Assembly: GCA_023253905.1 (NCBI GenBank)
Contig: JALREG010000253.1
Location: 1 to 8,657 of the forward strand
Length of the DNA stretch: 8,657 nt
Source: Burkholderiaceae bacterium
Lineage (GTDB): Bacteria; Pseudomonadota; Gammaproteobacteria; Burkholderiales; Burkholderiaceae
Direction of reading: 5' to 3'
In this document: positions 1 to 8,657 of the stretch, in pieces
Layout of the letters: each line of letters opens with the position of its first letter
Position numbering within the stretch: the stretch's first letter is position 1
Translations under genes and position numbers: made by a program
The notes under the pieces: generated by a model
Databases searched by the model: none
What the model saw: the letters and a program-made list of their open reading frames with translations, nothing else
Told to the model about the DNA's origin: nothing

Positions 1-986
1 CGAAGATCGTTGTGAAGCGCCATGATCTTGAGCATTTCCAGCGTGACCCCGCCGTGCCCGTTGACGATCGGTTTGGGAAGGCCCGTGGTGCCCGATGAGT
101 AGACGATCCAGAGCGGATGCTCGAACGGGACCGGGTCAATCAGAAGCGGAGCTGGGTCGGCGATGGCGGCTGCCCAGGTGAGCGCCATCAGACCTGGCCG
201 GGCGTTGTTGCGCGGCAGCCCGGAAGCGTCGCGAAGATCGCTGCCGGCCTCACGCGTGTCCGCTGGTCCGGGAACCGCGACAAAGAGCGTGAGGCTTGCA
301 AGCGTGTCGATCAGCTGTGCGGTGACCTCGCATCGGTCGTGGATGCGCCCGCCGTAGCGGTATGTGCTCGCTGCAATCAGCGCTTTGGGGGTGATCTGCC
401 GGAAGCGGTCGAGGATGCTTGCTGCGCCCATGTCGGGTGAGCACTGCGACCAGATGGCGCCGACCGCGGCGCAGGCGAGAAAAGCAATCACGGACTCGGC
501 CGCGTTGGGCAGAAGCGCCGCCACCCGATCGCCACGTGTGATGCCGTGGGCGCGCAGGGTGGCTGCGAGCGACGCGACTCGCGCTGCGAGCTCGGTCCAG
601 GAAAGCTCAACCTGGTCGCCTGCCTCATTACAGGCAATGATTGCCGGCAATTCAGATGGCGCATGGCGCAGCGCCTGGGAGGCGAAGTTGAGGGTTGCGC
701 CGGGGAACCAGACCGCGCCCGGCATCGTGGCCTTGGCGAGCGCTGGGCCATCGCCGCGCGTACCCGCGACATCGAAGTGGCGCCAGATCGAATCCCAGAA
801 AGGTCCCAGGTGGGAGATTGACCAGTGCCAGAGCGCAGTGCTGTCGGGGAGGGAGAGCCCGAGCGTACGTTCGATGTCGTGCCGATAGGCGGTGATACGG
901 GCTTGGCCCGCGCGCTCGGCGCTGGGGTGCCATAGGGGAGTGGGTGGGATGGCGCGGCCGGATCCGCGGGAGTCGGTCGGGTTCAT
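1..986 (-). CDS. Acetoacetyl-CoA synthetase (acetoacetate-CoA ligase), partial, C-terminal half beyond the window
   Basis: This is an ANL-superfamily adenylate-forming ligase that activates acetoacetate with ATP and CoA in the cytoplasm, feeding ketone bodies or polyhydroxybutyrate breakdown products into acetyl-CoA metabolism. I translated the minus strand from the ATG at 986-984 and found no stop through base 1, giving 328 codons of a family usually near 650 residues. The N-terminus has the family-like PLWHPSAER at about residues 17-25, then an acetyl-CoA-synthetase-type N-terminal segment. WSQCSPDMG, DRFRQI and YRYGG follow, and the adenylate-binding P-loop YSSGTTGLPKP begins at residue 296. 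The surrounding residues (LWIVYSSGTTGLPKPIVNGHGG) favour the acetoacetate subfamily over acetate or general acyl ligases. The start lies 9 bases after the CYTH-CHAD stop without a recognisable Shine-Dalgarno, so translational coupling is likely. The N-terminal alignment still supports this start. The thiolation half cannot be seen. Confidence 0.9.
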   Translation of the reverse strand, partial: MNPTDSRGSGRAIPPTPLWHPSAERAGQARITAYRHDIERTLGLSLPDSTALWHWSISHLGPFWDSIWRHFDVAGTRGDGPALAKATMPGAVWFPGATLNFASQALRHAPSELPAIIACNEAGDQVELSWTELAARVASLAATLRAHGITRGDRVAALLPNAAESVIAFLACAAVGAIWSQCSPDMGAASILDRFRQITPKALIAASTYRYGGRIHDRCEVTAQLIDTLASLTLFVAVPGPADTREAGSDLRDASGLPRNNARPGLMALTWAAAIADPAPLLIDPVPFEHPLWIVYSSGTTGLPKPIVNGHGGVTLEMLKIMALHNDL

Positions 987-995
987 GAACGATGA

Positions 996-2642
996 TCAGG
1001 TGGGTTTGACGGGTTCGTGCAAAGGGCGCTCCGGCGGCGCGTCCGCCAATGTCGCTGGCGTGGCTATTGGAGTCAGCGCAGCGGGGCTATCGGCCGCCTC
1101 GGCTGAGGGCGCGATGACAGGCGGTAGCGCAAGGTAGCGACGCTTCCAAGGCGCTTTCGATTGGCGAAGTGCGGCGAGCGCGGTCTCGCAACGCGACGAC
1201 TGCGCCTTGGCCTCGGCGGTGAGCCAGCCAACGGCGAACCATGCGCGAGGATCAGCGTCGATCTGGGCCCGGTAGCTCGCGAGTGCCTCGATAAGGTCGT
1301 TGTAACGCCCGAGGGCCTCCTGTGCTTCGGACAGGGTCTGAAGGAAGCGCCGGTACCGTTTGTTTGAGCACAGGGCTCGGCAGAACTCGATGCCGTAGCG
1401 AAGCCGCTTCATGCGCCTGCGCAGCCGGTGCCGCAGGTCGTCATCGAGCGTTGAAAACAGTCGTGCATCACGCCGCACCTGATGATGCCACCGGGACAGT
1501 CGGGCGATCAGCTGCGGGCCGGCCGGCGCGACGACCGGCGGTACCGACCGTGCCATGACCAGTTCGCCTGCGAGCAGGTCGACCACGAAAAATTGGTGGT
1601 CGCGGTGACGGACCACGTTCCTGGCATCGGCGGCGTTGGCAAGTGTGGCCAGATCGGTCGTGGGGGCTCCTGCCTGGGCGAGGGCGGGCGCCACGGACTC
1701 GAGCAGCACATCACGTTCGCGGCTGAGCCCGAGCGCTTGGGCGAGCGCTCTCGCCGGGGCATCCAGGTTGCGCAGAGGGGCGGCGTCGAAAAGCCGGATG
1801 GCGGTTCGCAGCCGGCGGAGGGCCACCCGAGCCTGGTGGACGTATTCGGGGTCTTCGCTTTCGCCCGAGGCGATGCTCGCAAGGTTCGCGAGCAATTGTC
1901 GCCTGCACTCATGCGTAACCAGCCGGGCGGCTGCGAGGGCATCATTCTGGGGGTCGATGCCGACCGACCGAGCTTTTGCTGCGCCGGACTGCCCGCGGCC
2001 CGCGGAGAGCCGATGCCCGCGTTCTGCCTTGGTGGCGGGATCGACCCAGCATGGGTGAGCACGAATGACCTGACGCGCAACGTCGGTGACGGCGAGCGGT
2101 GAGCCCTTGACGAGTTCGACCTCAATTTCGCAGACCGGGAGCGGTTGACGGCCCGGTGCGGCGATGAGGCCTGCATCGAAGCACACTTCGACCTCGCCAC
2201 GCCGGCTCCGAAACCGTACCATGGTGCGGCGGACATCGGTTTCGAAATGATTGATCAGACCTTCGGGGCCTGCGCGCTCGAGCGCGCGCATGAGGAGTGG
2301 CGCAGCCTCCGTGCCCTGGTGGCGGGCAGGGTCAAGCGACGGTGGCGTGTCGGGCTGCCCGCGCTGAACAACGACTTCGTGCTCAAACCGCGTGATCGCG
2401 CCAGGCAGGGCTGCCTTGAGTGTCTGCACCCAGCGCCCCCGCTCATAACGCAGGCGAAGCGCCATGCCCGAGGCAGCGAGGCTACGCCCGGCGGTATCGA
2501 AGTAGCGCGCGCGAAGCCGTTCGCGACGCCCGCCGCGCGCTACAACCCAATCGTGGACTGCACTTGCCCCGGATTCGTCGAGCTGCAGCTTGAGCTCAAC
2601 CTCTGTCACTTCGCTGTCACTCATCCTTAACAAACCGGTCAT
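996..2642 (-). CDS. CYTH-CHAD domain protein (triphosphatase/polyphosphate-associated type)
   Basis: This is a 548-residue two-domain protein. The N-terminal CYTH domain (about 11-210) opens with the ExExK signature E14-V-E16-L-K18, which binds metal and triphosphate. YFDT at 47-50 and a second acidic/basic strand, EIEVELVKG at 172-180, follow. The CHAD helical domain (about 232-500) has the usual VHQARVALRRLR block at 268-279, LGLSRERDV near 304-312, and HRLRRRMKRLRY at 405-416. The tail after about 508 is Ala/Pro-rich and probably disordered. Family knowledge: CYTH proteins such as E. coli YgiF hydrolyse inorganic triphosphate, and CHAD proteins bind polyphosphate granules (phosins). The ATG at 2642 is preferred over the in-frame ATG at 2624 because a GGAGGAG sits 4 bases upstream, while 2624 has no usable spacing. 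It is tandem with the acetoacetyl-CoA synthetase, so storage polymer (polyphosphate/PHB) use is a plausible shared theme. Substrate is not proven. Confidence 0.9.
   Translation of the reverse strand: MTGLLRMSDSEVTEVELKLQLDESGASAVHDWVVARGGRRERLRARYFDTAGRSLAASGMALRLRYERGRWVQTLKAALPGAITRFEHEVVVQRGQPDTPPSLDPARHQGTEAAPLLMRALERAGPEGLINHFETDVRRTMVRFRSRRGEVEVCFDAGLIAAPGRQPLPVCEIEVELVKGSPLAVTDVARQVIRAHPCWVDPATKAERGHRLSAGRGQSGAAKARSVGIDPQNDALAAARLVTHECRRQLLANLASIASGESEDPEYVHQARVALRRLRTAIRLFDAAPLRNLDAPARALAQALGLSRERDVLLESVAPALAQAGAPTTDLATLANAADARNVVRHRDHQFFVVDLLAGELVMARSVPPVVAPAGPQLIARLSRWHHQVRRDARLFSTLDDDLRHRLRRRMKRLRYGIEFCRALCSNKRYRRFLQTLSEAQEALGRYNDLIEALASYRAQIDADPRAWFAVGWLTAEAKAQSSRCETALAALRQSKAPWKRRYLALPPVIAPSAEAADSPAALTPIATPATLADAPPERPLHEPVKPT
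2603..2620 (+). promoter_or_regulatory. PHO box (PhoB binding site) upstream of the PlcP-like gene
   Basis: The bases read CTGTCAC-TTCG-CTGTCAC: two perfect 7-base direct repeats separated by 4 bases, an 11-base period. This is the classic architecture of the PhoB box (consensus CTGTCAT, 4 AT-rich bases, CTGTCAY). A weaker third unit, CCTTAAC, lies one period downstream at 2625-2631. The site is on the plus strand, 46 bases before the preferred metallophosphoesterase start, but inside the first codons of the divergent CYTH-CHAD gene. The 11-base period is not a multiple of three, so it is not a peptide repeat. No convincing -10 hexamer stands at the ideal 10-11 base distance; TAACAA at 2628-2633 is a weak option. 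PhoB control is inferred, but it matches the known phosphate-starvation induction of PlcP. Confidence 0.7.
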
Positions 2643-2646
2643 GTGG

Positions 2647-2653
2647 CTCCTCC
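2647..2653 (-). promoter_or_regulatory. Strong Shine-Dalgarno of the CYTH-CHAD gene
   Basis: Read on the minus strand this is GGAGGAG, 4 bases before the ATG at 2642. It decides that start over the internal ATG at 2624. It lies entirely inside the 24-base gap to the divergent metallophosphoesterase gene. Confidence 0.8.
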
Positions 2654-2666
2654 ACCATTAAGGCCC

Positions 2667-3515
2667 ATGGATATGAGCCCTGGTCTTGTCCCGATCCCCG
2701 ATCCAGAGGTCACCACCTCGGTCAGGACTGTCTGGATCTCCGACCTTCACCTTGGTACGCCTGGCTGTCAGGCGGGTCCGCTTCTTGATTTTTTACGGCA
2801 GTACGAGTGTCGCACACTGTATCTGGTTGGGGACATCATTGATGGCTGGCAGTTGCGTCGATCATGGTACTGGCCGCAGGCGCATAACGACGTTGTCCAA
2901 AAAATTCTGCGCAAGGCCCGCAAAGGCACCCGCGTGGTGTTCGTACCGGGTAATCACGACGAATTCGCTCGCCGCTATGTCGAACATAACTTCGGTGGCG
3001 TCGATGTTCACGAAGACTGCGTGCACACCACGGTTGACGGACGTCGTCTATGGGTCACGCACGGCGATCTGTTCGATGGCGTGATCCAGTGCGCGCGCTG
3101 GCTGGCGGTCGCGGGCGACATCGCCTACGAAACCACGCTGCGTTTCAACCGGCACCTCAATCGATTTAGGGCCCGACTTGGAATGCCCTACTGGAGCCTG
3201 TCACGTTATCTCAAGCTCAAAGTGAAAAGGGCGGTGAGCTATGTGTGCGCGTTCGAGGAAGCGGTGGCTCGCGAGGTACGCCGCCGCGGCCTTGACGGCG
3301 TGGTCTGCGGCCACATTCACCAGGCCGAGATTCGAGATATCGGCGGCGTGCTCTACTGCAATGACGGTGACTGGGTGGAGAGCCTGACAGCGCTGGTCGA
3401 GCACCATGACGGCCGGTTGGAAATTGTTGACTGGTCCGACTGGCTTGGCGCGCAGCCCGTGACAACCAACCGGCCGCTCCTCGACGAAGCGCCGGTGCTC
3501 AGTTCGGCCGACTAG
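2667..3515 (+). CDS. plcP: PlcP-type metallophosphoesterase (phospholipase C-like, LpxH-related)
   Basis: This is a calcineurin-like metallophosphoesterase of COG2908. Metal-site motifs, numbered from 2667, are DLHLG (D26, H28), GDIIDGW (D56), GNHDE (N96, H97), THGD (H132) and GHIH (H216, H218), so the di-metal site is complete. Databases often call such proteins UDP-2,3-diacylglucosamine diphosphatase, but true LpxH carries GNRDF where this has GNHDE. The GCQA segment and the RRSWYWPQAHNDVVQKILRK run (64-83) match Sinorhizobium PlcP as I recall it. PlcP cleaves phosphatidylcholine or phosphatidylethanolamine to diacylglycerol during phosphate limitation. Start: ATG 2667 is given; ATG 2673 is equally plausible, since AAGG at 2660-2663 is 9 bases before it but only 3 before 2667. 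A GTG at 2643 would extend the frame but lacks a ribosome site. A PHO box lies upstream. The stop is shared with the convergent decarboxylase gene. Confidence 0.85.
   Translation: MDMSPGLVPIPDPEVTTSVRTVWISDLHLGTPGCQAGPLLDFLRQYECRTLYLVGDIIDGWQLRRSWYWPQAHNDVVQKILRKARKGTRVVFVPGNHDEFARRYVEHNFGGVDVHEDCVHTTVDGRRLWVTHGDLFDGVIQCARWLAVAGDIAYETTLRFNRHLNRFRARLGMPYWSLSRYLKLKVKRAVSYVCAFEEAVAREVRRRGLDGVVCGHIHQAEIRDIGGVLYCNDGDWVESLTALVEHHDGRLEIVDWSDWLGAQPVTTNRPLLDEAPVLSSAD
3512..3515. other. Shared palindromic stop CTAG of two convergent genes
   Basis: The palindrome CTAG supplies TAG at 3513-3515 to the metallophosphoesterase on the plus strand and TAG at 3514-3512 to the phosphatidylserine decarboxylase on the minus strand. 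The genes therefore overlap tail to tail by 4 bases, with no room for an intergenic terminator. Confidence 0.9.
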
Positions 3516-4366
3516 CGCCCAGGCGCCTTCAGCAACACCTCACCCATCCGGATCTGGGTGCCGCTGCCGTGCGGCGCGGCAAGCTGCCAGCCCGGTGGGG
3601 CGAGGACGATGATGGTCGACCCGTGCTCGAACCAGCCAAGTTCCTCACCCCGGTGGGCCTGGTGGTTACAGATGATCGGGTTGGTACCCCGGTAGCGCAG
3701 GTGGAGCAGCACATCCGCAAAGCGGAGCCGGATGCTTGCAACCAGAATCGCGGCGACGGCTACCAGCGCGACCGGCTCGCCGGTATCTGTAAGCCGGCAA
3801 TGAAGAACCGCCCGCTCATTTCTGCAGAACAATCGCGACACCCGCGCGAGCGCAGGGGGGTTTACGTTCCAGCAGTCACCGCTCACATAATCGACCTGGC
3901 TGATCTGGCAGTCGGCCGGACTGTGAAAGCGGTGATACATCTGCGCGGTCAGCCTGAGCGTCACGTAGGTCGCGCCGCGGTACTGTTCGGCGCTCGCGGC
4001 GCTTCCCAGCAGTTCATCGAGGCGGTAGGGCATGCCCTTCGCCTGCAGCATCGCCATGTCGTTCACCACGCCATGCGCGCCGACGATTGCATCACACGGA
4101 CTTGAGAGCGTGCCCGCTTCCTGGCTGATGGATCGCGCACCCGGCTGAAGCTCGCGGGTAAAGCAGGCATGAAGACTGTCGAAGTCACTGCGCAGCGCGT
4201 CAGACAGATCGAGGTCGGAGAAACGCTTCCAGACCGCGATCAGGACTGACGCCAGCCACCGGCTGCGAACACGGCTCAGTCGGCCGAAGGCGATCGTGCA
4301 GAGCGCCCTGGGCAGTCGGTTGGTGAGCGCAAAGTTGATCGACGGGTAAGAGAGCGGGTTTCGCAT
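3512..4366 (-). CDS. psd: Phosphatidylserine decarboxylase proenzyme
   Basis: This 284-residue pyruvoyl enzyme decarboxylates phosphatidylserine to phosphatidylethanolamine at the inner membrane. The catalytic elements are in order: SPCDA with D92 of the processing triad, the qAKGmpY..DELLG block at about 108-121, MYHRFHSP with H145 and H148, NPPALARVSRLFCRNERA at about 169-186, and the self-cleavage site HGST with G249-S250. Cleavage there would give a long beta chain and a short alpha chain of about 35 residues with an N-terminal pyruvoyl. Two positions differ from the commonest form: SPCDA instead of SPCDG, and HGST instead of LGST or FGST. Neither removes a catalytic residue. A GAAGG at 4374-4378 (minus strand) sits 7 bases before the ATG. 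The gene is divergent from the aminotransferase, with 84 bases between starts. Its product is a likely substrate for the adjacent PlcP-like enzyme. Confidence 0.92.
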   Translation of the reverse strand: MRNPLSYPSINFALTNRLPRALCTIAFGRLSRVRSRWLASVLIAVWKRFSDLDLSDALRSDFDSLHACFTRELQPGARSISQEAGTLSSPCDAIVGAHGVVNDMAMLQAKGMPYRLDELLGSAASAEQYRGATYVTLRLTAQMYHRFHSPADCQISQVDYVSGDCWNVNPPALARVSRLFCRNERAVLHCRLTDTGEPVALVAVAAILVASIRLRFADVLLHLRYRGTNPIICNHQAHRGEELGWFEHGSTIIVLAPPGWQLAAPHGSGTQIRMGEVLLKAPGR

Positions 4367-4417
4367 CGTGGGGCCTTCATCGGATTGTCAAGCGCGCGCG
4401 CTACAACGGTGGAGTCC

Positions 4418-4431
4418 GCTCTGAACAGAGC
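4418..4431. repeat. Short inverted repeat in the psd/aminotransferase divergent gap
   Basis: The sequence is GCTCTG-AA-CAGAGC: perfect 6-base arms around 2 bases. It ends 19 bases before the aminotransferase ATG at 4451 and lies in the 84-base gap shared with the divergent psd gene. It could be a small operator or chance; no known regulator motif is recognised. Just upstream, 4391-4402 is a 12-base alternating GC palindrome of no clear meaning. Confidence 0.3.
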
Positions 4432-4437
4432 CAAGCC

Positions 4438-4441
4438 GAGG
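4438..4441 (+). promoter_or_regulatory. Shine-Dalgarno that sets the aminotransferase start
   Basis: GAGG lies 9 bases before the ATG at 4451. The alternative in-frame TTG at 4385 and GTG at 4409 have no comparable site, so 4451 is preferred. Confidence 0.5.
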
Positions 4442-4450
4442 CCTGATCCC

Positions 4451-6115
4451 ATGCAAGAGACATTCGTACTTTCTGCGCTCGCCGCAGGTGTTGCGGCCGC
4501 GGCCGCGCCGGCTGCGTGGCGCAGACTTCAGCTGTCGCGCGCCAAACATCGATCGCTGGCGGGCCATGCGCGCATTGCGCGGCGGATTGCAAAGCTGCTC
4601 CCGGGCTACCGCTACGACGACGCCGAGTTTTTTGCCTGTGACGGTGCGGGGCCGGAGGTGGCCGCCAGACGGGAGGCCGCCTTCAAGAGCCTCGCGGCGG
4701 AGTTCAGTGCGCGCTATGCCGATGGTATTGCCATGACGCGGGCCGCGCGCGAACTGATCTCCGACCTCCAGTTCATCTCTCGTTACCGCGTTCCCTTCCA
4801 GTTCTCCGAGCGGGTGGCCGCAACCCTGCGAACCAGCAGTTTCGTGGATCGCAGCGAGGGGATTCATCTGATTGATCTCGATGGCAACCCGTTGATTGAC
4901 CTCACGGGCTCGTATGGAGTCAATTTGCTGGGTAACGACTTCTACAAGGCGACGATCGAGGCGGGCGTGGCGAGTGTGCGGGGCCTTGGCTGCGTACTGG
5001 GGTCCTATCATCCCTGCGTGCTTGAGAACGCGGCACGGCTGCGCGAGATCTCTGGCCTGGACGAGGTGTCGTTTCACATGAGTGGCACCGAGGCAGTGAT
5101 GCAGGCCGTGAGGCTTGCCCGCTATCACACCGGTCGCTCGCATCTGGTTCGCTTTTGCGGCGCCTACCACGGCTGGTGGGAGGATGTTCAACCCGGACCC
5201 GGTAATCCGGTTCCGCCCCGGGACACCTATACGTTGCGTGACATGGATGCCCGCACCCTCGAGGTGCTCAGGTCGCGTCGCGATATTGCCTGTGTGCTGG
5301 TCAATCCGCTTCAGGCGCTTCATCCCAATTCGCCGGCCCCGGGTGATTCGTCGCTGGTCGACAGCGGCAGACGCGCGGGCTTTGATCGCGCCGCCTACAC
5401 CCGCTGGCTCGAGCAGCTGCGGGAAGTGTGCAGCGAGCGCGGCATTGTCCTGATCTTTGATGAGGTGTTTCTGGGCTTCCGTCTGGCACCGGGCGGCGCG
5501 CAGGAGTATTTCGGCGTTCGTGCCGACATGGTCACCTACGGAAAAACGCTGGGCGGTGGCTTGCCGGTTGGCGTCGTGTGCGGGCGAGCTGCACTGATGA
5601 AGCGATTCCGGGATGACCGGCCTGCCGACATCTGCTTTGCACGTGGCACCTTCAACGCCCACCCCTATGTCATGGGCAGTATGAAGGCGTTTCTCGATGC
5701 GCTCCAGACGCAGCCGATCCGTGCGCTCTATGCCAACCTCGATGACCTCTGGAACGGCCGGGCTGCGCATCTCAATCGAAGGCTCGACGAACAGGCGCTG
5801 CCGGTTCGAGTCGCCAATCTGTCGACCGTCTGGACCATCACCTACACCACGCCCTCGCGCTACAACTGGATGCTGCAGTTTTACCTGCGCTCCGAAGGGC
5901 TGGCTCTCAGCTGGGTGGGAAGCGGTCGTCTGATTTTCAGTCTCGACTTCACCGAAGCCGACTTCGATGAAGTGTGCGAGCGATTTGTAGCGGCCTGCAA
6001 GCGGATGCAGGCGGATGGTTGGTGGCAAGGCCCTGAAACCACCAACCGTGCGATCCGCAAGTCGATTCTCTCGGAAGTGTTGCGGCGCGGGGTGATGCGG
6101 CGCAAGAAAGCGTAA
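4451..6115 (+). CDS. Class III PLP-dependent aminotransferase, glutamate-1-semialdehyde aminotransferase-like, with N-terminal hydrophobic segment
   Basis: This 554-residue protein has fold-type I aminotransferase features of the glutamate-1-semialdehyde aminomutase branch. They are a cofactor-phosphate motif SGTEA at 211-215, AYHGWW near 240, FDEVFLGFR with the pyridine-binding D337, and the Schiff-base lysine K365 in YGKTLGGGLPVG. It is longer than a normal family member (about 430 residues) because roughly 100 residues precede the catalytic domain. Residues about 5-24 (FVLSALAAGVAAAAAPAAW, then RR) look like a membrane anchor or uncleaved signal, followed by an Arg/Lys-rich stretch. A true heme-pathway HemL is therefore unlikely. 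Substrate is unknown; the setting (psd, PlcP-like enzyme, glycosyltransferase) suggests an amino compound linked to membrane lipids, which is inference only. It is convergent with the next gene across a hairpin. Confidence 0.85.
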   Translation: MQETFVLSALAAGVAAAAAPAAWRRLQLSRAKHRSLAGHARIARRIAKLLPGYRYDDAEFFACDGAGPEVAARREAAFKSLAAEFSARYADGIAMTRAARELISDLQFISRYRVPFQFSERVAATLRTSSFVDRSEGIHLIDLDGNPLIDLTGSYGVNLLGNDFYKATIEAGVASVRGLGCVLGSYHPCVLENAARLREISGLDEVSFHMSGTEAVMQAVRLARYHTGRSHLVRFCGAYHGWWEDVQPGPGNPVPPRDTYTLRDMDARTLEVLRSRRDIACVLVNPLQALHPNSPAPGDSSLVDSGRRAGFDRAAYTRWLEQLREVCSERGIVLIFDEVFLGFRLAPGGAQEYFGVRADMVTYGKTLGGGLPVGVVCGRAALMKRFRDDRPADICFARGTFNAHPYVMGSMKAFLDALQTQPIRALYANLDDLWNGRAAHLNRRLDEQALPVRVANLSTVWTITYTTPSRYNWMLQFYLRSEGLALSWVGSGRLIFSLDFTEADFDEVCERFVAACKRMQADGWWQGPETTNRAIRKSILSEVLRRGVMRRKKA

Positions 6116-6130
6116 AGGCATGCGCAAGCG

Positions 6131-6157
6131 GGCGCGCCACCGAGCAGGTGGCGCACC
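6131..6157. terminator. Hairpin between convergent genes, probable bidirectional terminator
   Basis: Arms 6131-6141 and 6147-6157 pair as an 11-base GC-rich stem with one mismatch, around the 5-base loop GAGCA. It sits 15 bases after the aminotransferase stop and 6 bases beyond the stop of the opposite membrane-protein gene. There is no long T tract on either strand, so it is not a textbook intrinsic terminator, but position and strength favour a transcription-ending or RNA-stabilising role for both genes. Confidence 0.6.
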
Positions 6158-6163
6158 TCTGAG

Positions 6164-6772
6164 TTAGCGCTGCGTTACATCGTGCATTGGGTCGTAACGC
6201 TCGCCGCGCAGAAGCGCGAGCGGCGCACGATGATAGAGCGCGATATCATGAAACGGGTCGGTGAGAATCTTTGTACCCCAGGCTAATCCGACCAACAGCG
6301 ACTGCTGGAAACTGAGCTGTATTACCCGGAAAACCAGACCGGAGGCGCCAAGCGACAGCCAGGCGATACCGATGTCGTGAATCGTCTCCGCCAAGCTTGC
6401 CGCAGGCTCGATCAGTCCGCCCAACGAAGGGTTGATGATCAGTGCAAACGGGCACGCCACCCAGATCGACATCAGCACAATCTTGCGGCGAATGTTGTAG
6501 CCGACCTTGACGGCCTCCTTGTATTCGTCGGTCACCTGGTTGACTTCGTCAAATCCGCGCGGCTCAAAGAAAAAGTGACCTGCCTGCCGGCTGGTCATCG
6601 ACAGGCACCAGGCGATGATTGCGGACCACGCCGGCTCAAACGGCAGCAACAGATAAGCGACGACAAAGCAACAGGCGCTGAAGAGATGCAGCGACTGGTT
6701 GATGCGGCAGTGGTGATAGAAGCGGTGATCATCCCAGCGCTGTCGGTTGAGTTCATCAAAGAAGGCGTTCAT
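6164..6772 (-). CDS. Polytopic membrane protein, possibly Mpo1/DUF962-like
   Basis: This is a 202-residue protein with about four to five hydrophobic segments (roughly residues 28-43, 48-60, 98-118, 134-151 and 156-168). A conserved-looking histidine pattern is present: YHHCRINQSLH (H20, H21, N25, H29) just before the first segment, GHFFFEPRG (H66, E70) after the second, and TDPFHDIALYH (H175, H181) near the C-terminus. The paired H..N...H and GHxxxE motifs recall the Mpo1/YGL010w (DUF962) family, whose yeast member is an iron-dependent dioxygenase that shortens 2-hydroxy fatty acids by alpha-oxidation. The resemblance is from memory of motifs and is moderate. The start at 6772 is chosen because AGGAG lies 5 bases upstream; an ATG at 6847 would add 25 hydrophilic residues and lacks a good site. 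It is divergent from the glycosyltransferase. A role in lipid modification is inferred. Confidence 0.75.
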   Translation of the reverse strand: MNAFFDELNRQRWDDHRFYHHCRINQSLHLFSACCFVVAYLLLPFEPAWSAIIAWCLSMTSRQAGHFFFEPRGFDEVNQVTDEYKEAVKVGYNIRRKIVLMSIWVACPFALIINPSLGGLIEPAASLAETIHDIGIAWLSLGASGLVFRVIQLSFQQSLLVGLAWGTKILTDPFHDIALYHRAPLALLRGERYDPMHDVTQR

Positions 6773-6777
6773 CGGGT

Positions 6778-6782
6778 CTCCT
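6778..6782 (-). promoter_or_regulatory. Shine-Dalgarno that sets the membrane-protein start
   Basis: The minus strand reads AGGAG, 5 bases before the ATG at 6772-6770. It places the start there rather than at the upstream in-frame ATG at 6847, and so leaves 168 bases for regulation between the two divergent genes. Confidence 0.7.
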
Positions 6783-6804
6783 GTCATCAAACGATTGTTG
6801 CTCC

Positions 6805-6821
6805 GCTCAAACACTTTGAGC
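6805..6821. repeat. Perfect inverted repeat in the divergent regulatory region
   Basis: The sequence is GCTCAAA-CAC-TTTGAGC: 7-base perfect arms around 3 bases. It lies 33 bases upstream of the membrane-protein start and overlaps the place where a minus-strand -10 element could be. This shape suits a dimeric repressor or activator site, or a small leader hairpin. No known regulator consensus is assigned. Confidence 0.45.
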
Positions 6822-6828
6822 CTGGTTT

Positions 6829-6846
6829 GTGAAGACTGCGTGACCA
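6829..6846 (-). promoter_or_regulatory. Degenerate PHO-box-like sequence facing the membrane-protein gene
   Basis: The minus strand reads TGGTCAC-GCAG-TCTTCAC, two imperfect 7-base units at the 11-base period of PhoB boxes (5 and 4 matches of 7 to CTGTCAC). Ten bases on, CAAAGT (6818-6813) could be a weak -10. The match is poor enough that chance is a real alternative. Confidence 0.25.
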
Positions 6847-6865
6847 TCAGAGGCTCACGCGTGCG

Positions 6866-6899
6866 CTGTCATCGATTTGTTGCATCGCAGGGCTAGCCT
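6866..6899 (+). promoter_or_regulatory. PHO box plus -10 promoter of the glycosyltransferase gene
   Basis: At 6866-6883 the plus strand reads CTGTCAT-CGAT-TTGTTGC. The first unit is a perfect consensus half-box; the second keeps the TGT core. After exactly 10 bases comes TAGCCT at 6894-6899, a 3-of-6 match to a sigma-70 -10 element. Ten bases is the usual distance in PhoB-activated promoters, where the box replaces the -35. Transcription would start near 6906, giving a leader of about 35 bases before the ATG at 6941. Phosphate control is inferred from this layout and from the stronger box at plcP. Confidence 0.5.
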
Positions 6900-6929
6900 C
6901 TCGAGCGAAACTGGTCACCAGACAAGCAC

Positions 6930-6934
6930 AGGAG
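6930..6934 (+). promoter_or_regulatory. Shine-Dalgarno of the glycosyltransferase gene
   Basis: AGGAG lies 6 bases before the ATG at 6941 and confirms that start. An 11-base palindrome, CTGGT-C-ACCAG, sits just upstream at 6911-6921. Confidence 0.75.
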
Positions 6935-6940
6935 TAGCCG

Positions 6941-8167
6941 ATGCGCGCGTTGAAGCCGATTCGCCTCGCGGTGGTCACTGAAACCTACCCGCCGGATATC
7001 AACGGAGTCGCGATGAGTCTGTCCAGACTCATTGGAGGACTCCTCGAACGTGGGCACGATATCGACCTGTATCGCCTTCGCCCGCGCGATCCGGCAAGTC
7101 GCTCGGAGTGCTCATCGGCCGATCCATCGCGACTCCGTGTCACCGAGCTCAAGGGTGTGCCGATTCCGTTCTATCCGGAGCTGATGATGGGGTTGCCAGC
7201 CGGTCGGCTGCTCGTCCGACGCTGGCGGTCAGAGCGGCCCGATCTTGTTCATATTGCGACCGAGGGCCCGCTCGGCTGGTCGGCGCTGCGGGCTGCACGG
7301 CGACTGGGCATCCCGGTCTCATCCGATTTCAGAACACAGTTCGATCAGTACTCGACACACTACGGACTCGCCTGGCTCGCCGCGCCAGTGGGCGCGTATC
7401 TGCGGGCGTTTCATAACCGGACCGATCTGACGACGGTACCGACGTCCGCACTCAAGCAGGAGCTTGGTAACCGAGGCTTCCGTAAGCTGCGAGTACTCGG
7501 CCGCGGAGTCGATGCGCGCCAGTTCGATCCCGTCCGGCGCTGCGATTCGCTTCGCGCGGGCTGGGGCGCCAATCCCGATACGCCGGTTGCGCTCTGCGTG
7601 GGGCGGCTCGCCGCTGAGAAGAATCTGGAGCTTGCGCTTCAGGCCTTCAGGGCGATGCGCGATCTTGCACCCGATGCGAAACTTGTGTTCGTCGGCGATG
7701 GCCCGCTGCGCGAGACGCTGGCTCGGACCTGTCCGGATGCGATATTCGTCGGGCGACAGACCGGGACTGAACTCGCGCGGCACTATGCAAGTGCCGACGT
7801 GTTTCTATTTCCCAGCCTGTCAGAGACCTTCGGCAATGTCGTGACTGAATCGATGGCAAGCGGACTGGCGACGGTTGCGTTTCGTCATGCCGCGGCGGCA
7901 GAGCTGATTGAAAGCGGCGTCACTGGGTGGCTGAGTGATCCGGAGGACGCGCGAAGCTTCATCAACTCGGCGCGCGCGCTCGCCGCCGACGCTCGGCGAC
8001 GTCGAGCCATGGGGCGAGGTGCTCGTGAAGCTGTCTCCCATCTTGATTGGCCAGTAATTGCTTCCCAATTCGAGGCGATCGTTCAGGCGCTGATCGAAGG
8101 CGAGCGCCCGGTGCAGGCGCCTTCTGGCGTCACGCGGTTGCGCGCCTCGGAAACCTGGCCAGTCTGA
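6941..8167 (+). CDS. GT4-family glycosyltransferase, probable diacylglycerol glycosyltransferase partner of PlcP
   Basis: This 408-residue retaining GT-B enzyme has an N-terminal acceptor domain opening with VVTETYPPDINGVAMSLSRL (glycine-rich loop near residues 11-31). The linker carries HNRTDLTTVPT and LGRGVDARQFDP. The donor domain has VGRLAAEKN at 220-228, with R222 and K227 as expected phosphate-binding residues, GDGP near 253, and the EX7E motif E295-TFGNVVT-E303. No signal peptide or membrane segment is evident, so it should act at the cytoplasmic face of the membrane. The family includes Agt and SqdX-like enzymes that add sugars to diacylglycerol, and mannosyltransferases. Sequence alone does not fix donor or acceptor. 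A PlcP-like gene in the same locus and PHO-box-like sites before both genes favour glycolipid synthesis from PlcP-made diacylglycerol during phosphate limitation. It is convergent with the HD-domain gene, 52 bases apart. Confidence 0.88.
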   Translation: MRALKPIRLAVVTETYPPDINGVAMSLSRLIGGLLERGHDIDLYRLRPRDPASRSECSSADPSRLRVTELKGVPIPFYPELMMGLPAGRLLVRRWRSERPDLVHIATEGPLGWSALRAARRLGIPVSSDFRTQFDQYSTHYGLAWLAAPVGAYLRAFHNRTDLTTVPTSALKQELGNRGFRKLRVLGRGVDARQFDPVRRCDSLRAGWGANPDTPVALCVGRLAAEKNLELALQAFRAMRDLAPDAKLVFVGDGPLRETLARTCPDAIFVGRQTGTELARHYASADVFLFPSLSETFGNVVTESMASGLATVAFRHAAAAELIESGVTGWLSDPEDARSFINSARALAADARRRRAMGRGAREAVSHLDWPVIASQFEAIVQALIEGERPVQAPSGVTRLRASETWPV

Positions 8168-8173
8168 GTTGCT

Positions 8174-8190
8174 GCCGCTCGACTAGCGGC
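8174..8190. terminator. Weak hairpin between convergent genes
   Basis: GCCGCT-CGACT-AGCGGC forms a perfect 6-base stem with a 5-base loop, 6 bases after the glycosyltransferase stop and inside the 52-base gap to the HD-domain gene. There is no T tract on either strand. A terminator role rests on position only. Confidence 0.35.
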
Positions 8191-8219
8191 GTGCGGGAAC
8201 AGCACCAGCGATCTTCGAC

Positions 8220-8657
8220 TCAAGACCAGCCGCGTAGCGCCGGTCGGGTTGCGAGGCGGGCGATACTCAGGAAGTGCTCCAGGCGAGTGCTATGGGCACT
8301 CCCTCGTCGCGACCGATCGTCCCACCGGCAAAGTCGCAGTGCATCCCTTGCGATGGGGTCTGCGTCAAACCTCTCGACCTCGGCCGAAGACATCGGACCA
8401 CCTTGCAACGCGAGCGATCGCAGACACGGCACGGGAAGTGCGCGCATGTAGCCTGGCTCGGTCGTGCAAAGATATCGCTTTGCGTCGACGTGCGCCGCGG
8501 CCAACCGCGCAACGCGCGGATCGAAGCGTGCGTCAAGCCAGCGCGCGCCGATTTCATGATGATGATCGTCCTCGGCCTGCCCTTCCTCTACGTCTGCAGT
8601 GGACGTCAGCAGATGGCCAATATCATGCGTGAGGGCTGCGGTCACTAGCCACGCAGG
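8220..8657 (-). CDS. PhnZ-like HD-domain oxygenase/phosphohydrolase, partial, N-terminus beyond the window
   Basis: The frame is open to the window edge; upstream codons read P-A-W-L before V-T-A-A-L, so a GTG at 8645 is internal, not the start. The visible 145 residues carry LTHDIGHLL (the HD metal pair), DDHHHEIGARWL (next histidine ligand), AAHVDAKRYL (further histidine and the conserved lysine), ALQGGPMSSAE and RWDD (C-terminal aspartate ligand). This order matches the HD-domain proteins linked to phosphonate degradation, whose member PhnZ is a mixed-valence di-iron oxygenase that cleaves 2-amino-1-hydroxyethylphosphonate to glycine and phosphate. Family length is about 180-200, so roughly 40-50 residues, including the first histidine ligand and substrate-gating residues, are outside. 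Without them, PhnZ activity cannot be told from a related myo-inositol-oxygenase-like or unknown HD enzyme. The theme of phosphate acquisition fits the neighbouring genes. Confidence 0.8.
   Translation of the reverse strand, partial: PAWLVTAALTHDIGHLLTSTADVEEGQAEDDHHHEIGARWLDARFDPRVARLAAAHVDAKRYLCTTEPGYMRALPVPCLRSLALQGGPMSSAEVERFDADPIARDALRLCRWDDRSRRGSAHSTRLEHFLSIARLATRPALRGWS

Follow-up and report, generated by a model that had tools for sequence, protein, structure and literature searches.

The window analysed here is an 8,657-nt stretch (positions 1-8,657) of contig JALREG010000253.1 of a Burkholderiaceae bacterium (assembly GCA_023253905.1), and our subject is a tandem array of predicted PHO boxes, the direct repeats recognized by the response regulator PhoB, upstream of a gene for a PlcP-like metallophosphoesterase (plcP). 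This gene lies between a divergent CYTH-CHAD gene and a convergent gene for a phosphatidylserine decarboxylase (PSD) family protein, followed by genes for an aminotransferase (AMT), a small membrane-like protein (HYP227) and a glycosyltransferase (GT4), and by a gene fragment (Phn-HD) at the window edge (Table 1).

Table 1. Features of the window, with positions, strand and supporting observations
Feature	Positions	Strand	Observation
CYTH-CHAD gene, divergent from plcP	996..2642	-	Domain matches; ATG 2642 preceded by GGAGGAG (2653-2647)
Distal PHO box, CTGTCAC repeated exactly	2603..2620	+	18.8 bits; 64 nt before ATG 2667, a modal offset in relatives
Proximal degenerate PHO pair, CCTTAAC-AAAC-CGGTCAT	2625..2642	+	9.8 bits; same 11-bp register; 42 nt before ATG 2667
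-10-like hexamer CACCAT	2653..2658	+	10 nt after proximal PHO pair; spacing as in 44 pstS promoters
plcP-like metallophosphoesterase gene, likely start ATG 2667	2667..3515	+	Metallophos; LpxH models far under cut-off; 8 nt after -10
PSD family protein, convergent with plcP	3512..4366	-	TIGR00163 over cut-off
PHO-like pair CCTTCATCGGATTGTCAA before AMT, 10 nt, TACAAC (4402-4407)	4374..4391	+	10.0 bits
AMT, class-III aminotransferase with N-terminal extension	4451..6115	+	Best solved match: mycosubtilin synthase subunit A chains
HYP227, small membrane-like protein with weak resemblance to Mpo1	6164..6772	-	Pfam Mpo1-like E 0.008, below cut-off
Weak PHO-like pair TGGTCACGCAGTCTTCAC before HYP227, 10 nt, CAAAGT	6829..6846	-	About 6 bits, near chance alone
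PHO-like pair CTGTCATCGATTTGTTGC before GT4, 10 nt, TAGCCT (6894-6899)	6866..6883	+	11.6 bits
GT4, family-4 glycosyltransferase	6941..8167	+	Family matches
Phn-HD fragment (phosphonate-degradation HD-domain oxygenase), window edge	8220-8657		Below cut-off as fragment

The initial annotation of this DNA had pointed to a perfect repeat, CTGTCAC-TTCG-CTGTCAC (CTGTCACTTCGCTGTCAC), on the plus strand at 2603-2620 with an 11-bp period, and this repeat is indeed present. The annotation overlooked that the period continues, as CCTTAAC (2625) and CGGTCAT (2636) follow the CTGTCAC units at 2603 and 2614 in a single 11-bp register, giving two CTGTCAY-like 7-bp direct repeats and two more units in phase. 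Scoring of the window with a PhoB weight matrix, as the annotation had proposed, placed 2603-2620 at the top of both strands (18.8 bits), followed by the sites at 2614 (12.6 bits), 6866 (11.6 bits), 4374 (10.0 bits) and 2625 (9.8 bits). Among 300 simulated order-2 Markov windows, none contained a site as strong as 18.8 bits (highest 18.66). A consensus scan allowing up to three mismatches is not significant on its own, with two matches against 0.84 expected and 45 of 200 shuffles reaching two.

The matrix was derived from Burkholderiales pstS upstream regions, and plcP was not used. The PstS model TIGR00975 found matches in 68 of the 81 genomes of relatives, and upstream regions were taken from 50 of those 68. 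The best match to the published PHO consensus reached at least 12 of 14 positions in 31 of the 50 regions, as against 0.7% of shuffles. Training was based on 37 sites with at least 11 of 14 consensus positions located 120-230 nt before the protein match, whereas the other 13 regions yielded no qualifying site.

Three related genomes (G001, G004 and G005) contain the exact pattern YTGTCAYNNNNYTGTCAY six times in total, twice each, while the reversed control gave no occurrence. These six boxes precede plcP (G001 and G005), phoB (G004, 47 nt before its start), ppk1 (G004) and a gene for an ArsJ-associated glyceraldehyde-3-phosphate dehydrogenase (GAPDH; G001 and G005), and it is reasonable to regard all of these genes as fitting phosphate starvation. 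In the two closest genomes, the plcP box is one of two exact boxes, and plcP of G004 has a lesser box of 15.4 bits. Another OmpR/PhoB-family response regulator reading similar 11-bp direct repeats might bind the array instead, and such regulators are numerous in these genomes, each of which has 18-19 matches to the PhoB model with exactly one over the cut-off. However, the motif equals that found upstream of Burkholderiales pstS genes and the box before phoB in G004, and we consider binding by a different regulator improbable.

The GAPDH box stands at position 1501 of both L218 and L220 (from G001 and G005); the family scan was done on the G001 copy, and the G005 copy is a nearly identical protein. 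Arsenate enters cells via phosphate transporters, which would fit phosphate control of this arsenate-handling enzyme, and the ArsJ-associated GAPDH is possibly under such control. In G004 (L219, position 1501), the ppk1 box is located between divergent ppk1 and exopolyphosphatase-like genes, and one of the two candidate ppk1 ATG codons shows the plcP-like layout of a PHO box, 10 nt, CAGCAT and 7 nt.

Conservation upstream of plcP was analyzed in 125 plcP loci of relatives, from which 12 were removed as duplicate or too short, leaving 113 distinct upstream regions. Within 230 nt of plcP, sense PHO sites of at least 10 bits are present in 53 of the 113 regions, compared to 6 antisense and a shuffled expectation of 0.9. 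At 14 bits or more, the counts are 24 sense, 2 antisense and 0.1 shuffled. The background of such sites is 0.018 for every 230 positions on each strand (78 loci, plcP sites included). An in-frame ATG was found in 102 of the 113 loci, and 87 carry a sense pair of at least 5 bits 20-89 nt before it (antisense 5). The distances from these pairs to the ATG cluster at 41/42, 53 and 63/64 nt, and those of the window are 42, 53 and 64 nt. At thresholds of at least 5, 8 and 10 bits, in-register sense sites occur in 72, 45 and 30 of the 113 regions (antisense 2, 0 and 0), and five shifted registers used as a control gave 9-16, 6-13 and 3-5; at least one such site is present in 42, 27 and 16 of the 68 sequence clusters, respectively. 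The PHO site is conserved upstream of plcP in relatives, apart from the 41 of 113 that have no in-register site, and core Pho genes in related genomes carry it as well. A chance origin of the repeat was rejected on the matrix scan, the ATG offsets, the genome-wide counts of the exact pattern and the register counts, and the repeat at 2603-2620 is, judged by its sequence, almost certainly a PhoB site.

L032 belongs to a contig titled Bordetella parapertussis, but its PlcP is 98% identical to that of the window and a bin from a lake metagenome matches this locus; the title is probably a mislabel. A further 25 contigs with plcP relatives (L111-L135) are filed as viral, which may reflect host contamination or phage-borne lipid genes, and many of them contain a GT4-family gene (30-32% identical to that of the window) directly after plcP.

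The array overlaps the CYTH-CHAD gene, and its repeats might be a mere by-product of the codons of this gene (SDSEVTE) with no regulatory role. The CYTH-CHAD protein most likely starts at ATG 2642, because GGAGGAG precedes this codon and because Met 2624 is replaced by Thr in both close relatives, for which reason a start at 2624 was rejected. With the start at 2642, all four half-sites fall within the first 14 CYTH-CHAD codons, which would fit a coding origin. However, because of the 11-bp period the two units do not share a codon frame, and the 2603-2642 region differs from that of the two close relatives only at 2610 and 2623, where both substitutions lie in spacers and alter the CYTH protein while sparing the repeats. 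Across the whole gene, CYTH-CHAD identity to these relatives is 94.2% and about 84.5% (the latter with approximate gene ends); as two substitutions are few, the sparing of the repeats is suggestive only. The annotation had also raised the question of whether the repeat is conserved beyond the CYTH-CHAD codons, and this proved to be the case: with the CYTH-CHAD protein of the window as the query and many loci being short, a match was found in 5 of the 113 plcP loci, and the gene adjoins plcP divergently only in the two close relatives (L001 and L002), as against the 53 regions with sense pairs of at least 10 bits. On the basis of the substitutions and of the sites that lack a CYTH-CHAD neighbour, a coding by-product was rejected, and we regard it as extremely improbable.

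No sigma-70-like promoter was detected on either strand in 2560-2800, so that no promoter was identified for CYTH-CHAD. Given the overlap, expression of CYTH-CHAD could be disturbed by PhoB and RNA polymerase acting at the plcP promoter, and interference between the two genes may be mutual. CHAD domains bind polyphosphate.

The position of the array relative to the promoter was examined by aligning the pstS and plcP upstream regions on their PHO sites. In the pstS set (44 of the 50 regions, aligned on the best box of at least 14 bits), the box is followed by 10 nt and a -10 element TAnnnT, with T, A and T conserved in 38, 41 and 41 of the 44 sequences. In the plcP set (71 of the 113 regions with a best sense site of at least 8 bits, aligned on the last pair), a nAnnaT hexamer is found at the same position as the pstS -10 (position 30 is A in 45 and position 34 is T in 54 of the 71), and in many of these regions an ATG follows about 6-8 nt later. 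The 10-nt spacing from the PHO pair to the -10 is therefore common to pstS and plcP, and the window shows the same layout, with the pair at 2625-2642, 10 nt, CACCAT at 2653-2658, 8 nt, and ATG 2667. In both close relatives, the equivalent of 2625-2642 is also the final pair of the chain. Since this spacing is that of pstS promoters, plcP translation most likely starts at ATG 2667 on a predicted, nearly leaderless mRNA; GTG 2643, the start given in the list of open reading frames, was rejected as it falls inside the predicted promoter. The initial annotation had described the exact repeat as correctly placed for plcP in orientation and distance. The distance is right only if the start is ATG 2667, and the exact pair is the distal one, with a degenerate pair beside the -10; the -35 place about 10 nt before the -10 is taken by the proximal pair and not by the exact distal pair on its own.

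Leaderless mRNAs have a 5' end no more than 10 nt from the start codon, and for plcP such an end is predicted from the -10-to-ATG spacing. A genuine PHO box could also serve a plcP gene with an ordinary leader, a start downstream of ATG 2667 or another promoter. This would be consistent with a second in-frame ATG at 2673, with AAGG at 2660-2663 as a possible ribosome site if transcription began further up, and with the 41 of 113 relatives that are out of register. Set against this are the clustered offsets of the 87 best pairs and an M-R/Q-R-D N-terminus exactly at the in-register ATG in 14 of the 52 starts, of which Variovorax contributes 9. Leaderless transcripts also exist in Burkholderia cenocepacia, where transcription is reported to begin at the start codon itself in 72 genes and no more than 10 nt away in 42, with tRNAs accounting for 24 of the transcripts (PMC4603805). 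Given both sides, an ordinary leader or a different start appears rather unlikely, and we retain the nearly leaderless start at ATG 2667. Shine-Dalgarno-like words are present at 11 of 52 in-register plcP starts, 11 of 16 AMT, 5 of 29 PSD and none of 3 HYP227 starts.

The enzyme encoded by plcP is a metallophosphoesterase distinct from LpxH (UDP-2,3-diacylglucosamine diphosphatase), a member of the same superfamily whose name is the usual database label for enzymes of this type. The annotation was right in calling such enzymes mislabelled, as the JGI name LpxH stands on many of the 120 homologues listed. The LpxH models TIGR01854 and NF003743 gave 37.8 of 190.35 and 40.5 of 134 bits, respectively, far below their cut-offs. 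A separate LpxH over the cut-off is encoded in G001 and G004, where it carries the motif GNRDF, whereas the window protein has GNHDE. The Arg of GNRDF matters in LpxH. The protein could nevertheless be a lipid A enzyme, either LpxH or a stand-in, that is incidentally Pho-regulated, as the database labels imply and as would fit the result for G005 (90% complete), in which no LpxH over the cut-off was found. The low model scores, the separate LpxH genes and the changed motif make a role in lipid A synthesis quite improbable. For a PlcP-type enzyme, PHO sites and linkage to lipid genes are both present in the sequence, and no solved structure related to PlcP was found at E 0.01. The PlcP label was assigned by family resemblance.

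From the conserved array, its spacing relative to the -10 and the ATG, its match to the pstS and phoB sites of relatives, and the separate LpxH of two relatives, we infer PhoB binding, induction, a transcription start and an enzyme activity as follows. The tandem array at 2603-2642 very probably drives plcP in phosphate scarcity, producing a nearly leaderless mRNA for an enzyme of the PlcP type rather than LpxH. PhoB bound to both pairs would bring RNA polymerase to the -10 (2653-2658), and transcription would begin at ATG 2667 or within a nucleotide or two of it, making the mRNA leaderless or nearly so. The PlcP-type phospholipase C-like metallophosphoesterase would then split phospholipids to diacylglycerol, with the freed phosphate head being reused and the diacylglycerol serving as a backbone for phosphorus-free lipids.

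Several points weigh against this proposal. CACCAT is a poor -10, and the proximal pair is weak (9.8 bits). The 41 relatives out of register include some with strong PHO boxes at other positions (L014, L020-L022 and L198-L200), while in L005, L008 and L030 nothing upstream of plcP scores above 2 bits, and the relatives are not phylogenetically independent. In the nearest genus, plcP was found in three of five genomes and not in the other two. Absence of a Shine-Dalgarno word favours a leaderless plcP weakly, since PSD and HYP227 also rarely have one. The training sites were selected with the published consensus, so that the matrix does not amount to a blind discovery; its checks are the shuffles and the -10 signal. 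Finally, the PlcP membership and activity of the enzyme are predicted from its family, context and predicted regulation.

PHO-like promoters also appear to be present in the neighbouring gene cluster. Sense sites of at least 10 bits were found upstream of AMT in 19 of 36 cases (shuffled 0.3), GT4 in 26 of 33 (0.1) and HYP227 in 10 of 32 (0.4). The antisense counts (AMT 3, GT4 11 and HYP227 26) are an unclean control, as GT4 and HYP227 are divergent and have one intergenic region in common. PSD has sense sites in 2 of 37 cases, and the 18 counted antisense to it belong to AMT. The sequence logos, each from 31 sites, read TTTCATnnnnnTTGTCAA, 10 nt and TAnA for AMT, and CTGTCATCGnnCTGTTGCA, 10 nt, CAnCAT, about 7 nt and ATG for GT4; both were aligned on the best PHO match, leaving just the -10 part as independent. 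Several relatives have CCGTCACGCCGATTTCAC, 10 nt and CACCAT before HYP227. The second half-site of GT4 deviates from the pstS consensus and this deviation is conserved, which could mean that the PhoB site is modified or that a different factor is involved. The GT4 start of the window at 6941 is not leaderless. AMT, GT4 and, more weakly, HYP227 have PHO-like promoters, and the same switch as for plcP seems to apply to them, judging from these sites.

AMT is present in 20 of the 81 genomes, and HYP227 in those 20 plus G025. All 20 HYP227 proteins compared with the Mpo1-like Pfam model match it with E values of 1 or lower (best 4e-5). The plcP gene is present in 44 of the 81 genomes, including all 20 with AMT (hypergeometric 4e-7, ignoring kinship). 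An Agt-like enzyme adjoining plcP was found in 14 of 24 plcP genomes without AMT versus 1 of 20 with AMT (Fisher 3e-4, ignoring kinship), where Agt-like means located beside plcP with E 1e-30 or better, a label by position and family. GT4 is 29-43% identical to glycosyltransferases adjoining plcP in other genomes. A plcP-agt operon was not found in the window, where the convergent PSD gene is downstream of plcP and GT4 lies 3.4 kb further. Because AMT, HYP227 and plcP co-occur, Agt-like enzymes beside plcP are mostly missing from AMT genomes and the promoters are PHO-like, we tentatively suggest, at somewhat less than an even chance, that AMT-HYP227-GT4 (with PSD) may form an undescribed PhoB-controlled pathway for a probably amine-bearing, phosphorus-free membrane lipid. 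This lipid would be an alternative to Agt glycolipids fed by diacylglycerol from PlcP, with leaderless PhoB-driven mRNAs for plcP and, in relatives, GT4. Phn-HD, another phosphorus gene, occurs in only 2 of the 135 loci compared, many of which are short.

These sequences are strong evidence for placing plcP in the Pho regulon of many Burkholderiales, a large order in which PlcP proteins frequently carry the name LpxH and whose members may exchange phospholipid for phosphorus-free lipid. The spacing from PHO site to ATG that recurs among relatives provides a simple rule for finding further genes of this kind and correct start codons, and the Pho-like cluster beside plcP is a concrete candidate for an unknown lipid. 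In the open-access titles and abstracts searched, we found none that deals with plcP PHO boxes in Burkholderiales. In the open-access literature, no paper on the AMT/PSD/GT4 cluster was found, no plcP paper combined a PHO box with leaderless mRNA in its title, and a search for plcP and Betaproteobacteria gave no title on plcP regulation in Burkholderiales.

PHO boxes before plcP have already been published for other bacteria, and the newer part of this work is the PHO-like promoters of AMT, GT4 and HYP227 beside plcP. In marine bacteria, PlcP gene clusters with PHO boxes have been described and plcP has been presented as a key step of lipid remodelling (PMC4796936). Like the window, these clusters have predicted PhoB sites at their PlcP genes, but the partner genes are agt, btaBA and other glycosyltransferases, and Burkholder- and Betaproteobacteria are not named in the main text of that paper. 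Remodelling by plcP-agt has also been reported in Methylosinus (PMC9239053). Burkholderia sensu lato has PHO boxes upstream of olsB that, like those of the window, were predicted by a matrix at lipid genes of Burkholderiales (PMC7814305), but they concern ornithine lipids, and plcP is absent from the main text of that study. In Pseudomonas aeruginosa, PA3219-PA3218 (plcP-agt1) and PA0842 (agt2) have PHO boxes with the consensus CTGTCATNNNNCTGTCAT, which is the same as for the window, and they form a Pho-linked switch from phospholipid to glycolipid (PMC8528852). Unlike plcP-agt1 of P. aeruginosa, plcP of the window stands alone between the divergent CYTH-CHAD and convergent PSD genes, and the window contains instead an aminotransferase/GT4 cluster with PHO-like promoters of its own.
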